Assembly: GCA_017530105.1 (NCBI GenBank)
Contig: JAFXMW010000136.1
Coordinates: forward strand, 1 to 36,127
From: Bacteroidales bacterium
GTDB taxonomy: Bacteria > Bacteroidota > Bacteroidia > Bacteroidales > P3
Reading direction: 5' to 3'
Length of the DNA stretch: 36,127 nucleotides
Positions 29,971 through 35,333 of the stretch are shown piece after piece (position 1 is the first letter of the stretch; the number at the start of each line of letters is the position of its first letter). Both the position numbers and the translations under genes were made by a program. The notes under the pieces are model-generated. The model did no database searches. It saw only the letters and a program-made list of their open reading frames with translations, and was not told the DNA's origin.

Positions 29971-30309
29971 ATGTACACCTTTATTGTTATCCTGATTCTG
30001 ATTGTATGTGTAGCATTGGCTCTTGCCGTGTTAGTGCAGAACTCTAAGGGCGGTGGTCTGGCCGCCAACTTCTCAGCCCCCAACCAAGTGCTGGGTGTTC
30101 GCAAGACCACTGAAACTATCGAGAAAATCACCTGGGGCTTGGCCATTGCTTTGGTTGTCCTGTCATTGGCAGCCACCACAGCCATTCCGCGCCATAGCGC
30201 CGAAGCCTCTATCAACACCGAGGTCGATGTCACCGCAGCTAAAAGCGTAACTCCTGCCGCCACAGCCGCACCTGTAGCCACCGAGGCCGCTGCCGAGACT
30301 GCCGAGTGA
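29971..30309 (+). CDS. secG: Preprotein translocase subunit SecG
   Basis: The 112-aa protein has two transmembrane helices (about 3-22 and 53-71) separated by the cytoplasmic loop NSKGGGLAANFSAPNQVLGVRKTTETIEK, which matches the SecG 'QxxKGGGL...G' signature. SecG assists SecYE-SecA preprotein transport across the inner membrane. An alanine/threonine/glutamate-rich tail of about 35 residues is a common Bacteroidota extension. A terminator follows. Confidence 0.94.
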   Translation: MYTFIVILILIVCVALALAVLVQNSKGGGLAANFSAPNQVLGVRKTTETIEKITWGLAIALVVLSLAATTAIPRHSAEASINTEVDVTAAKSVTPAATAAPVATEAAAETAE

Positions 30310-30379: not shown

Positions 30380-31825
30380 ATGGAAAAGGTCTCTGCTTTC
30401 ATCCTCTCCCACCTGCCCCATCAGCCTACCGCCATGCAGCGACAGGCGTGTGAAGCCATGGTCCGCTTCCTCTACGACCCCGACCCTGCTGCCACTTTCC
30501 TCCTCAAAGGCTATGCCGGCACCGGCAAGACCTCTCTGGTCAGTGCCCTGGTGCGTTCGGCTCCCCTCCTACGCATCAAAACCGTACTTCTTGCCCCCAC
30601 AGGCCGTGCCGCCAAAGTGCTGGCAGCCTATTCGGGACAGCCCGCCTTCACCATCCACCGCAAAATCTACCAAACCGTCACCGACAGCACCGGCACCATG
30701 CGCATGGCGCGGGCGTTGAACAAACATTCCTACACCCTTTTCATTGTCGACGAAGCCTCCATGATAGGTCAGAACGACGAGGGCGGCATCGAACACCGCA
30801 GCCTGCTCGACGACCTGGTGGACTATGTGGGCGAAGGCAACCACTGCCGGCTCATGCTCATCGGCGACACTGCCCAGCTGCCTCCCGTGGGCTCCAGCCA
30901 AAGCCCTGCCCTCGATGCCGACTATCTTGCCTCCTTCCTCCATCTCACCGTCCACCAAAGCCACCTCACCGAGGTGGTGCGTCAAACCAGCATGTCGGGC
31001 ATTCTCTTCAACGCCACCCTCCTCAGGCAGCAGATAGCCTCTCTCCCCGATGGCACCCAGCCCTCCATGCCGCTCTTCAACCTCAACGGCTGCACCGACA
31101 TAGTCCGACTTCCAGGCAACGAACTGGAGGAAACCCTCAACCTCGAATACAGCCTCGGCGGCCCCGAACAGATGGTCATCGTCACCCGCAGCAACAAACG
31201 GGCCAACCTTTTCAACCAGCAAATCCGCAACCGAATACTTTTCCGCGAAGAGGAAATCAACGCCGGCGACTACCTCATGGTGGTAAAAAACAACTACTAC
31301 TGGTTGGAGCCAGACAGCGGCATCAGCTTTATTGCCAATGGCGACATTATGGAAGTGCAAAGCCTGCGCAACCACCAGGAACTCTATGGCTTCCACTTTG
31401 CCGACGCCACACTCCGCTTTATCGACTATCCCGACATGCCCGCCTACGACTGCAAACTCCTCCTCGAAACCCTCCACAGCCAGTCCCCCTCGCTCACCCC
31501 TCAAGAGTCGCGCCTCCTTTTCGACTCTGTTATGGAGGACTATGCCGACCTCCCCACCAAAGCCGACCGTCTCAAAGCCGTCAAACAGAATCCCTACTTC
31601 AACGCCCTGCAAGTCAAGTTCGCCTATGCCCTCACCTGCCACAAAACCCAAGGCGGTCAATGGCATTCCGTCATCGTCGACCAAGGCTTCCTCGCCGACG
31701 AGATGATTGACAAAGATTTTCTCCGTTGGCTCTATACCGCCGTCACCCGTGCCACGGGCAAAGTTTATCTCCTCAATTTCCAAGATAATTTTTTTGCCCC
31801 TCAGGATAATATTTCCACCGAATAA
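30380..31825 (+). CDS. RecD/Pif1-like SF1B DNA helicase
   Basis: The 481-aa protein shows Walker A KGYAGTGKTSLV (about 43-54), LLAPTGRAAKVL (motif Ia, about 73-84), Walker B FIVDEASMI (about 119-127), GDTAQLPPVG (motif III, about 157-166), EVVRQT (motif IV) and a C-terminal UvrD_C_2 part with YALTCHKTQGGQWHSVIV (about 412-429) and LYTAVTRA (about 451-458). It is shorter than RecD2 and lacks its N-terminal HhH region. A role in replication or repair is likely. It probably shares a transcript with the rpoN fusion gene, 75 nt downstream. Confidence 0.9.
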   Translation: MEKVSAFILSHLPHQPTAMQRQACEAMVRFLYDPDPAATFLLKGYAGTGKTSLVSALVRSAPLLRIKTVLLAPTGRAAKVLAAYSGQPAFTIHRKIYQTVTDSTGTMRMARALNKHSYTLFIVDEASMIGQNDEGGIEHRSLLDDLVDYVGEGNHCRLMLIGDTAQLPPVGSSQSPALDADYLASFLHLTVHQSHLTEVVRQTSMSGILFNATLLRQQIASLPDGTQPSMPLFNLNGCTDIVRLPGNELEETLNLEYSLGGPEQMVIVTRSNKRANLFNQQIRNRILFREEEINAGDYLMVVKNNYYWLEPDSGISFIANGDIMEVQSLRNHQELYGFHFADATLRFIDYPDMPAYDCKLLLETLHSQSPSLTPQESRLLFDSVMEDYADLPTKADRLKAVKQNPYFNALQVKFAYALTCHKTQGGQWHSVIVDQGFLADEMIDKDFLRWLYTAVTRATGKVYLLNFQDNFFAPQDNISTE

Positions 31826-31900
31826 GAGTTATTAATCTTGTTCCGCGCCGCCACCGCCCACAACGGTGCGCCGCATCGTTTAACCGAAAGACTACACGCC

Positions 31901-34357
31901 ATGAAAAGCGGACAACGACAGACCATGAAGATGCAGCAAAAGCTCTCCCCTCAGCAATTGCTCCTGCTGCAGCTGATACAAATGCCCGTTACCGAACTGG
32001 AACAGCGGCTCAAAGACGAAGTGGAGAAAAACCCCGTGCTTGAGGTCTCCTCTGCCGACAGCGAGATGATTGAACCCCTGCCCGAAGCGGGAACCGACAA
32101 CTACGACCTCATCAGCGCCGACACCGACGATGACGACTACAGCTACCGCGAACGACAAGAGCGCGACCGAAACCAAGACGTCCACGAAAAAGTCTTCGTC
32201 TCCGAAGACTCCTACTTCGACCACCTCATGGGCCAACTCTCCATGCGCCCCCTCACTCCCAAGCAGTATGCCATAGCCCAGGAAATTGTGGGCAGTCTCG
32301 ACGATGCTGGCTATGTGGGTCGCAGTCTCGACCTCATCGCCAACGACCTCGCCTTCACCCAAGGCATCGAAGCCTCCCCCGACGAAGTGGAGGAAGCCCT
32401 GCGCCTGGTCCAGCAAATGGACCCTCCAGGCATTGCCGCGCGCAACCTGCAGGAGTGTCTCTCCCTCCAACTCCATCGTGCCGAAGACCAAAGCGACGAC
32501 ACCCGCTGGGCCACCGCTGTTGTCGACCGTTGCTTCGACTCCTTCGCCAGCCACAACTACTCCCGTGTCCTCGAAGAACTCTCCCTCACCGAGCAGCAAC
32601 TCAACGACGCCATCTCCCGCATCCGCAGGCTCAACCCCAAACCCGGCCTTGGCGACTCCGACACCTCCCATGCCCGCTACATCGTCCCCGACTTCATCAT
32701 CACCCGCCACGAGGACCAGCTCACCCTCACCCTCAACGACCGCTACCTCCCTCAACTGCAAAAAAACCAAGACTACCGCGACATGCTCCAGCAGCTCGAG
32801 AGCCTCTCCAAACCCTCGCCCGGCGAGAAACAGGCCCGCGACTTCCTCCGCTCCAACTTCGACAGTGCCGACCTCCTCGTCGACACCCTCCAGCAACGCC
32901 ACTCCAGCCTTCTCAAAGTCATGCGCGTCATCCTCCGCAAACAATACCGCTTCTTCCTCACTGGCGACACCGCCGACCTTAAACCCCTTCTCCAAAAAGA
33001 TGTTGCCGCACTCACCGGCTACGACATCTCCACCGTCTCGCGCGTAGTCAACAGCAAGTTTGTTCAAACCGAGTTCGGCACTTTCAGGCTCAAAGACTGC
33101 TTCTCGCAGGCCATCGTCAACCACCAGGGCGAAGAGGTTGCCACCGAAGCCATCCGGCGCGAGCTCCAGGCTGCCGTCGACGCCGAAGACAAACGCAACC
33201 CACTCTCCGACGATGCCCTTGCCCTCATCCTCTCGCAGAAAGGCTTCCCCGTGGCACGGCGCACCGTGGCCAAATACCGCCAAATGCTCGGCATCCCCGT
33301 TGGGCGGCTCCGTCGTCAGCTTGTCATGCTCCTCCTATTCCTCCTGGCTGCAGGCTCCCTTGCCGCACAGCAGCCACAGAAAGAAAGCTACTTCGACTCC
33401 CTCATCAAAGCCCGCATCCGCGAAGGGCAAACAAAAACCCGGGTGGAAAAAAACGCCAAGGCCAAAACCCCTGTCAAACCCGGCCGGCCGGCACTCGAAA
33501 TCCACGAACCCGAACCCGACCCCAACGCCATCGACACCACCCTCGCCACCGGCGACGAACTTATCGATGTCATGTACAACTCCACCCTCCCGCCACCCTC
33601 CTCTCTCTGGTACGGGCGCAACCTCTCCGGCTCCCATGTCCGGCTGGTCAACCTCTCCATGGACTCCCTGCCCGACGAAATCACCATCCGCCTCCTCAAA
33701 GACAACGAAAAATTCTTCTTCCCGGTCAAAAACATCATCACCTCCCCCTACGGCTGGCGTTGGAACCGACCCCACCGCGGCGTTGACATCCGTCTGCGCA
33801 TGGGCGAACCGGTTTACTGCGCCTTCAACGGCGTGGTGCGCATTGCACGACCCATGGGCGCCTACGGCAATCTTGTTGTCGTTCGCCACTACAACGGGCT
33901 CGAAACCGTCTACGGGCACCTCTCCAAAATCAATGTCAAACCCATGCAGGTTGTCGCCGCCGGGCAGGTCCTCGGCCTTGGCGGCAGCACGGGTCGCTCC
34001 ACCGGCCCTCACCTCCATTTCGAAGTCCGCTTCCAATACGAACCCTTCGACCCCGAATGGATTTTGGACTTCTCCAACTACACCCTCCGCACCCGCAAAC
34101 TCTATCTCGACAAAACCTACTTCGGCATCCGCAAGCCCTCCAAAGGTGACGAACTGGTCTACAAAGCCGACAAAAGCATCATCCCCGAAGAAACAGTATC
34201 CCCCCGTCGCACCAACAAACCACTCTATGCCACCATGCGTAAAGGCGAAACCCTCGACGACCTCGCCAAACGCAACCACACCACTGCCGACAAACTCAAG
34301 CAGCTCAACCCCGAAGTAACGAAATTCAAATCCGGACTGCGTGTCCGTGTCCGTTAA
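31901..34357 (+). CDS. rpoN: RpoN (sigma-54) fused to an M23/LysM cell-wall peptidase
   Basis: One open frame of 818 codons holds two normally separate proteins. I chose the ATG at 31901, since QKLSPQQLLLLQLIQMP just after it is the glutamine-rich activator-interacting region I of sigma-54. Residues 1-475 are a full-length RpoN: MDPPGIAARNLQECL, the core-binding domain, the HTH region (LTGYDISTVSRVVNSKF) and the RpoN box ARRTVAKYR (452-460). The RpoN part ends GRLRRQLV, the usual sigma-54 C-terminus. Codon 476 is an ATG that begins a signal-peptide-like segment MLLLFLLAAGSLAAQQ. Then come an M23 metallopeptidase domain with HRGVD (near 624) and HLHFEV (near 704), and a C-terminal LysM domain (about 770-818). 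No stop separates the parts. It may be a true fusion, or two proteins made from one frame through internal initiation at 33326 or signal-peptidase cleavage. Confidence 0.88.
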   Translation: MKSGQRQTMKMQQKLSPQQLLLLQLIQMPVTELEQRLKDEVEKNPVLEVSSADSEMIEPLPEAGTDNYDLISADTDDDDYSYRERQERDRNQDVHEKVFVSEDSYFDHLMGQLSMRPLTPKQYAIAQEIVGSLDDAGYVGRSLDLIANDLAFTQGIEASPDEVEEALRLVQQMDPPGIAARNLQECLSLQLHRAEDQSDDTRWATAVVDRCFDSFASHNYSRVLEELSLTEQQLNDAISRIRRLNPKPGLGDSDTSHARYIVPDFIITRHEDQLTLTLNDRYLPQLQKNQDYRDMLQQLESLSKPSPGEKQARDFLRSNFDSADLLVDTLQQRHSSLLKVMRVILRKQYRFFLTGDTADLKPLLQKDVAALTGYDISTVSRVVNSKFVQTEFGTFRLKDCFSQAIVNHQGEEVATEAIRRELQAAVDAEDKRNPLSDDALALILSQKGFPVARRTVAKYRQMLGIPVGRLRRQLVMLLLFLLAAGSLAAQQPQKESYFDSLIKARIREGQTKTRVEKNAKAKTPVKPGRPALEIHEPEPDPNAIDTTLATGDELIDVMYNSTLPPPSSLWYGRNLSGSHVRLVNLSMDSLPDEITIRLLKDNEKFFFPVKNIITSPYGWRWNRPHRGVDIRLRMGEPVYCAFNGVVRIARPMGAYGNLVVVRHYNGLETVYGHLSKINVKPMQVVAAGQVLGLGGSTGRSTGPHLHFEVRFQYEPFDPEWILDFSNYTLRTRKLYLDKTYFGIRKPSKGDELVYKADKSIIPEETVSPRRTNKPLYATMRKGETLDDLAKRNHTTADKLKQLNPEVTKFKSGLRVRVR

Positions 34358-34391: not shown

Positions 34392-35333
34392 ATGAAAATA
34401 GTCTTTATGGGAACCCCCGACTTCGCTGTCGCCTCCCTCCAAGCCATCCTCAATGCAGGCCACCAGGTGGTGGGTGTTGTCACCGTCCCCGACCGTCCCA
34501 CCGGACGCGGACTCAAAATCACCGCCTCCCCCGTCAAGCAATTCGCCCTCGATCACAGCCTCCCGCTCCTCCAACCCGAAAAACTCCGCGACCCGCTCTT
34601 CCTCCAACAACTCAGCCAATGGCAGGCCGACATCTTTGTCGTCGTGGCTTTCCGTATGCTTCCCCAAAGCGTCTGGGCCATGCCTCCCATGGGCACCTTC
34701 AACCTCCATGCCTCGCTGCTTCCTCGCTATCGCGGGGCGGCCCCCATCAACTGGGCCATCATCAACGGCGACACCCTCACCGGCGTCACCACCTTCATGC
34801 TCAACGAGCGTATCGACGAAGGCTCCATCCTCCTGCAGCAGTCCACCCCCATCACCCCCGACGACACCGCCGAAAGCCTCCACGACCGCCTTGCCCTCTT
34901 GGGCAGCAATCTTGTTGTCGACACCCTCGCCGGTCTCCAGGCGGGCACCCTCGTCCCCAAACCCCAGCCGCAAAACGTCCCCATGCCGCCGGCACCCAAA
35001 ATCTTCAAAGCCGACTGTGCCGTCGACTGGTCCCTCCCCGGCCAGCGCATTGTCGATTTTGTCCGCGGCCTCTCCCCCTATCCCGCCGCCACCATGACCC
35101 TCGCCGACCCGCAGGGCACACATCACTCCTTCAAACTCTTCCAAGTAGGCTTCCAACCCGACTCTTCCGCTACCCCCGTGCAACTCTTTTCCGATGGTAA
35201 AACATTCCTAAAAATTGCCGTACAGGACGGATTTATCGACATTTTGAACCTCCAATTGAGCGGAAAAAAGCGTATGACCGTGGCGGAATTTCTTCGTGGG
35301 TGCAATGTAACCAACTGGAAATTAGCAATGTAA
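34392..35333 (+). CDS. fmt: Methionyl-tRNA formyltransferase
   Basis: The ATG at 34392 (MKIVFMGTPDFA) is the canonical start; the in-frame upstream extension overlaps the gap after the M23 domain. The 313-aa enzyme formylates initiator Met-tRNA with 10-formyl-THF. Visible motifs: VVTVPDRPTGRG (about 35-46), the catalytic HASLLPRYRGAAPINWAIINGD (about 108-129, with Asn and His of the NHD triad) and GVTTFMLNERIDEGSIL (about 132-148, with the Asp). The C-terminal anticodon-binding-like domain is present. It follows the rpoN fusion after 34 nt. Confidence 0.95.
   Translation: MKIVFMGTPDFAVASLQAILNAGHQVVGVVTVPDRPTGRGLKITASPVKQFALDHSLPLLQPEKLRDPLFLQQLSQWQADIFVVVAFRMLPQSVWAMPPMGTFNLHASLLPRYRGAAPINWAIINGDTLTGVTTFMLNERIDEGSILLQQSTPITPDDTAESLHDRLALLGSNLVVDTLAGLQAGTLVPKPQPQNVPMPPAPKIFKADCAVDWSLPGQRIVDFVRGLSPYPAATMTLADPQGTHHSFKLFQVGFQPDSSATPVQLFSDGKTFLKIAVQDGFIDILNLQLSGKKRMTVAEFLRGCNVTNWKLAM

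Follow-up and report, generated by a model that had tools for sequence, protein, structure and literature searches.

Sigma-54 and a predicted exported M23 peptidase share one reading frame in a genus of uncultured gut Bacteroidales

Sigma-54 (RpoN) is usually regarded as a soluble factor that is controlled by activators. In the window studied here, by which we mean the whole analyzed stretch of 36,127 nucleotides from a Bacteroidales genome, the rpoN gene runs without a stop codon into a signal-peptide-like segment and an M23 peptidase, so that the coding sequence of a predicted exported enzyme begins with the sigma factor. The same holds for 43 of 59 genomes of the genus and, through a second event, for one genome of another genus. 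The locus therefore raises a question of topology: can a sigma factor work with its DNA-reading box approximately 25 to 30 residues from a membrane segment, and, if not, what frees it?

On translation, positions 31901 to 34357 of the forward strand form one frame of 818 codons plus a stop, with zero internal stops, and the open frame extends upstream as far as a TTG at 31838. The features of the locus are as follows.

29971..30309, + strand: SecG, the second gene upstream
30380..31825, + strand: RecD2-like AAA/UvrD_C_2 helicase, the upstream neighbor
31901..34357, + strand: fused coding sequence of 818 aa, sigma-54 (RpoN), signal-peptide-like segment, M23 peptidase, and weak LysM
31913..32047, + strand: Sigma54_AID, activator-interacting domain, aa 5-49 (Pfam PF00309, 2e-11)
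32189..32776, + strand: Sigma54_CBD, core-binding domain, aa 97-292 (Pfam PF04963, 1e-53)
32843..33319, + strand: Sigma54_DBD, DNA-binding domain, aa 315-473 (Pfam PF04552, 3.6e-46)
33254..33280, + strand: RpoN box ARRTVAKYR, aa 452-460, seen in the translation and the alignment
33305..33316, + strand: RLRR, aa 469-472, the RpoN end and proposed n-region of the signal peptide
33320..33367, + strand: hydrophobic h/c region VMLLLFLLAAGSLAA plus the L before it, aa 474-489, up to the predicted signal peptidase I cut A489|Q490
33326..33328, + strand: ATG of the original prediction; 10 of 52 fused sequences have one at the same offset
33770..34054, + strand: Peptidase_M23 domain, aa 624-718 (Pfam PF01551, 107 bits)
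34238..34315, + strand: LysM-like stretch, aa 780-805, slightly below the Pfam cut-off
34392..35333, + strand: fmt, methionyl-tRNA formyltransferase, the downstream neighbor

Sigma54_AID, Sigma54_CBD, Sigma54_DBD, and Peptidase_M23 all exceeded their Pfam cut-offs, and together with the 818-aa frame they bear out the original prediction of a complete sigma-54 in frame with an M23 peptidase. That prediction had also named a LysM domain. A matching stretch was found, but at 19.9 bits it falls under the Pfam cut-off of 20.9, and since only 8 of 30 fused homologues matched LysM at an E value of 0.001 or less, we treat this part of the protein as weak. In the same 30 homologues, the CBD, DBD, and M23 domains were always matched by Pfam and the AID in 29. 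The M23 zinc ligands H, D, H (HxxxD and HxH) are present as H625, D629, H704, and H706, and these residues, together with H673, are invariant across the alignment of the 30. The nearest solved relatives of the peptidase half are M23 entries such as 9gy1. Residues 1 to 475 of the sigma half align end to end with 477-aa solved sigma-54 chains, indicating that the fusion point is the ordinary RpoN C-terminus.

Such a frame could come from a stop codon or frameshift missed at the junction through sequencing or binning error, and the source of the window is indeed a MAG of 146 contigs. Against this, the identical in-frame junction recurs in 43 of the 59 genomes of the genus and in MAGs of many projects, which refutes an assembly error; we reject that explanation, its remaining probability being negligible, and regard the fusion as real. 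Among the matches listed, the 59 genomes comprised 43 with the fusion, 13 with separate genes, and 3 (G003, G031, and G036) in which no RpoN match was found. The match was a single unbroken frame in 38 of the 59 among the matches listed, and the two-piece matches of G014, G500, G521, G526, and G827 each read as one fused frame. The M23 gene adjoins or overlaps rpoN in 12 of the 13 genomes with separate genes, and none was found near it in G013. Where RpoN was present, each genome had one match, and in 61 genomes of relatives the fused frame predominated within the window's genus, both among the matches listed. A scan of genome contigs yielded 68 loci, of which the fused ones belonged to rumen, omasum, and fecal Bacteroidales MAGs from several projects (UBA, RUG, RGIG, horse feces, and deer), Candidatus Colimorpha merdihippi being one of them. 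No other long RpoN fusion was seen in 296 genomes of the phylum and 393 of the order, among the matches listed. The original prediction had left it to related genomes to tell whether the fusion recurs, and they do not always carry the two genes apart.

A tree of 113 RpoN domains, 52 fused and 61 separate, requires four changes of state, three of which are forced by starred branches. Monophyly of all 52 fused sequences was rejected (p-AU 0.00025), because the fused locus of G436, a member of another genus of the same family, arose independently; monophyly of the remaining 51, the main clade, was not rejected (p-AU 0.368). We therefore reject a single origin for all fusions, which arose at least twice. 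The G436 fusion (L139:2077-4584) has every domain, with LysM above the cut-off. Two separate RpoN sequences, L037 and L146, fall within the main fused clade; their branches are long, and they may represent either reversals or errors of placement. Being separate there, they suggest that the fusion may be dispensable.

Three arrangements form a series within the family. The M23 gene is at another place in the genome, or it follows several hundred bases behind rpoN with a frame resembling a membrane protein between the two; it overlaps or abuts rpoN, at times with an in-frame ATG straight after the rpoN stop; or the two are fused. In L130, L337, and L339, rpoN and M23 are in frame with a single stop codon before the M23 ATG, which is likely the state before fusion. 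The intervening frame of approximately 190 to 210 aa in the deeper members L096, L097, L148, and L158 resembles a multispanning membrane protein. A start was obtained for 31 of 48 separate loci surveyed; another 12 yielded none, and the remaining 5 lacked a nearby M23. Of the 31 M23 starts, 13 were in the frame of rpoN, about as expected by chance. Both halves of the fusion are under purifying selection: across nine pairs, dN/dS was 0.04 to 0.24 for RpoN and, in eight of them, 0.04 to 0.18 for M23.

The junction itself has a uniform build. Across the 52 distinct fused sequences, the end of RpoN (RLRR, RLRK, or similar) always leads without a gap into a hydrophobic stretch and then to a small residue followed by Q, although our search demanded [AGSC]Q, hence the 52 of 52 for that pattern. 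This set leaves out two fused loci, L166, which was missed by the box pattern, and L336, which was added later. The first candidate cut was A|Q in 47 of the 52, and Q490 did not vary among the 30 fused homologues of an alignment free of the [AGSC]Q requirement. No frame break was found at the junction in any of the 52, and the segment from RR to the cut held no acidic residue in 50. The acidic residue after RLRK in separate RpoN (RLRKEL), missing in the fused ones, was present in 44 of 61 separate proteins; with the other 17 also lacking it, we rejected its loss as a mark of fusion. The basic RLRR and hydrophobic stretch that the original prediction had placed after the sigma end are thus accompanied, in all 52 sequences, by a signal-peptidase-like site.

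For signal peptidase I substrates of Bacteroidetes, a glutamine after the signal peptide is described as the rule, the "Q-rule," in two reports (PMC5837995 and PMC10653852). The junction has the corresponding features, namely a basic n-region, a hydrophobic core, a small residue at -1, and Q at +1. The signal stretch of the exported half thus appears to end at a Q-rule site, at which cleavage and pyroglutamate formation are predicted. Delivery of sigma-54 to the membrane would follow naturally from the RLRR, the hydrophobic stretch, and the cut site.

With no stop codon between the halves, every ribosome that reads rpoN continues into the peptidase, and sigma-54 and M23 are likely made as one chain, with additional internal initiation being possible. 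A rival explanation turns this around: most M23 protein would be started at an in-frame ATG, GTG, or TTG close to where rpoN ends, with the fused chain arising as a by-product of stop loss. A potential in-frame start does exist in 51 of the 52 fused sequences, including possible GTG or TTG codons inside rpoN, and in the sister clade, separate M23 genes frequently overlap rpoN or lie directly against it, in some cases with an ATG right after its stop. An ATG was missing at or after the RR in 30 of the 52. The tail was without any ATG in 14 of 52, versus 9 of 43 separate M23 genes, and ATG, GTG, and TTG were all absent in 1 of 52 versus 1 of 43. Because separate M23 genes lack an ATG about as often, its absence does not discriminate, and we dropped "no ATG, hence one chain" as a decisive argument; the 9 separate genes are, if anything, a point for internal initiation. 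Some separate M23 genes (L088, L089, L099, L100, and others) have no ATG before the signal peptide, and in L088 the stretch searched ahead of it contains none of ATG, GTG, and TTG.

Internal initiation is weakened by three observations. The fusion would still be produced by ribosomes reading rpoN, no stop intervening. The fused sequences have no start position in common, and the most frequent ATG offset, which lies just past the RpoN box, occurs in 21 of the 52. Moreover, the A+T context is far poorer than ahead of separate M23 genes: the excess of the best A+T content upstream of candidate starts over that of the gene itself was 0.05 for fused sequences versus 0.21 for separate M23 genes (n = 42) and 0.18 for the 25 adjacent to rpoN, i.e., with a start region within 60 nt of the rpoN stop (p of 6e-10 for all and 4e-6 for adjacent genes, with kinship ignored). 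The same evidence bears on the alternative that had been offered with the original prediction, a lost stop codon with translation from 33326. The ATG is located right after the sigma end as described, but it is not conserved and has no initiation-like context. We consider it unlikely that M23 is made mostly by internal initiation. Programmed frameshifting near the junction, which would release sigma-54 from some ribosomes and so solve the tethering problem, is far less probable still. A -1 slippery heptamer was found near the junction in 5 of the 52 sequences, but the five differ in sequence and place, and with no heptamer shared among the 52 in a search that covered -1 heptamers, we rejected this explanation.

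Several features suggest that the sigma-54 half is functional: its domains are intact, a PspF-like activator is present, and there are -24/-12 sites. The activator in the window's genome, G000 (L122:5690-6955, between dnaG-like and aroA-like genes), is the only strong one among the matches listed. It is a 421-aa protein (Sigma54_activat, 5e-66) with the AAA domain from residue 12, GAFTGA, and a Fis-type HTH; this layout leaves no space for an N-terminal sensor and is like that of PspF. A transposase-like frame lies nearby (L122:8560-9486). The exact motif TGGCACN5TTGCW occurred 75 times in nine fused genomes, versus 25 times for a reversed control; it was not in excess in G017, G002, or the separate-gene G005. 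There were 81 exact matches, and 40 regions were read, of which 9 had no ORF of at least 60 aa starting within 400 bases and several more had doubtful ORFs. The genes behind some of the motif sites were dnaK, htpG, two clpB-like genes, rsfS, secA, and prfA.

We then scored the regions upstream of selected genes with a promoter matrix built from the sigma-54 consensus, using the best 30 loci per gene from 49 htpG, 54 secA, and 59 dnaK-like genomes among the matches listed. At a score of at least 9, a cut-off picked after the data were seen, a -24/-12 site preceded dnaK in 26 of 30 (fused, 21/24; separate, 5/6), htpG in 25 of 30 (fused, 22/24; separate, 3/6), and secA in 13 of 30. Reverse-strand controls at this cut-off gave 1/30, 1/30, and 0/30, respectively, and coding controls gave 0/46 and 2/46 on the forward strand and 6/46 and 0/46 on the reverse strand. 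At a score of at least 12, sites remained in 15 of 30 for htpG and 12 of 30 for secA. Loci with -24/-12-like sites before dnaK, htpG, and often secA were L207, L220, L231, L270-L299, L300-L329, and L332. In the window's genome, the htpG site is 59 bp ahead of the ATG, no -24/-12 site was found upstream of secA, and the dnaK start was not found among the matches listed. Upstream of rpoN, -24/-12 sites were found in 0 of 46 at a score of at least 12 and in 1 of 46 at a score of at least 9, and we accordingly rejected autoregulation of sigma-54. A 176-aa protein is encoded directly behind a -24/-12 site in two genomes (L221 and L230), the L221 copy having no family match. The sites before dnaK, htpG, and secA are the sole regulatory hint and point to protein folding and export. 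The idea, raised in the original prediction, that the fusion senses the state of the cell wall found no support. As the sites also occur in separate-gene members, the regulon predates the fusion and is independent of it.

Direct observations are the fused frame and its conservation, the intactness of its domains, the selection acting on each half, and the recurring A|Q; from them we infer single-chain synthesis without separate initiation, followed by export, cleavage, and tethering. We think it probable that one preprotein is made, from which the hydrolase is exported and cut off, while sigma-54 remains at the membrane with a hydrophobic tail. The N-terminal 473 to 475 residues would not leave the cytoplasm and would act there as a functional sigma-54, with the RLRR at the natural C-terminus of RpoN doubling as the n-region of the signal peptide and the hydrophobic core coming next. 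The M23 peptidase would pass through Sec, and signal peptidase I would cut at A|Q; the product would be a peptidoglycan hydrolase of the periplasm whose first residue is glutamine. Sigma-54 would retain a hydrophobic tail of approximately 15 to 25 residues, located about 25 to 30 residues beyond the start of the RpoN box, and would be delivered to the inner membrane, for some time at least. As only about 13 residues separate the end of the box from the h-region, a membrane-held tail would force the DNA-reading helix up against the lipid bilayer. Sigma-54 so tethered would probably be hindered, and it would then be trimmed or else be dispensable. A possible release step is trimming of the tail, e.g., by a site-2 protease. 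The site-2 protease family PF02163 was present in 7 of 7 genomes and equally in 14 of 14 control genomes; because the controls have it too, it is uninformative on release, and we rejected it as support.

Whether such tethering has a regulatory role is a separate matter. The fusion may be harmless: the chain would be made and processed, sigma-54 would work with its tail or after trimming, and the arrangement would persist without regulatory meaning, reversal being hard. That rpoN and M23 were neighbors beforehand and that the -24/-12 sites occur before dnaK and htpG in separate-gene members too are both in line with this reading, to which we give slightly less than an even chance. On the other hand, the fusion has two or more origins and has been retained through deep divergence, suggesting, without proof, some benefit. 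A speculative reading, which we consider rather unlikely, is that the fusion serves as a sensor of export. Working Sec and signal peptidase would pin sigma-54 at the membrane by the C-terminal tail right behind the RpoN box and keep it inactive or short-lived; saturated export or misfolding would leave it soluble, or an intramembrane protease would free the tail, and the PspF-like activator with sigma-54 would then turn on htpG, dnaK, and secA. The logic would be akin to that of SecM, except that the sensor would be the sigma factor itself.

Under the preprotein model that we favor, the fusion would couple the output of a cell-wall hydrolase one to one with a sigma factor that likely targets chaperones and SecA. 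If sigma-54 is carried to the membrane during synthesis, as it probably is, this would add a new means of controlling or positioning such a switch, in a large group of gut bacteria not yet cultured.

Compared with known systems, the fused protein shares its three sigma Pfam domains with ordinary RpoN (TIGR02395; 9mse_M and 8f1i_M, in which residues 1 to 477 align with its 1 to 475) and differs in running without a stop into a signal segment and an exported peptidase. Its H-x3-D and H-x-H are those of other M23 peptidases (9gy1, ShyA, DipM, and lysostaphin). However, these are ordinarily separate preproteins with their own signal peptides, whereas the n-region here is the RpoN end. A literature search, which mostly did not reach subscription papers, found none on sigma-54 fused to a peptidase. 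For sigma-54 control of heat-shock genes in Bacteroidota, the likeness lies in chaperone targets already in print: in PMC12316311, GrpE and GroES of B. thetaiotaomicron are reported as sigma-54 dependent and HSP70/HSP90 groups as enriched, and its main text has no match for "fused," "SecA," "HtpG," or "ClpB." A sigma factor and a transmembrane region do occur in one chain in ECF52-type sigma factors such as SCO4117, as described in PMC5826349. These belong to the sigma-70 family, which has another fold. We know of no ECF52-type protein that has a cleavable signal peptide with an exported hydrolase. In Bacillus subtilis, a short segment holds pro-sigma-K at the membrane until the site-2 protease SpoIVFB releases it, according to PMC11486902. 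That segment is an N-terminal pro-sequence on a sigma-70-family factor of sporulation, whereas the segment of the fused sigma-54 is C-terminal and part of a predicted exported enzyme, with a release that is only putative. Sigma factors with membrane segments are thus already known from the sigma-70 family, and what is new here is the partner and the family of the sigma factor.
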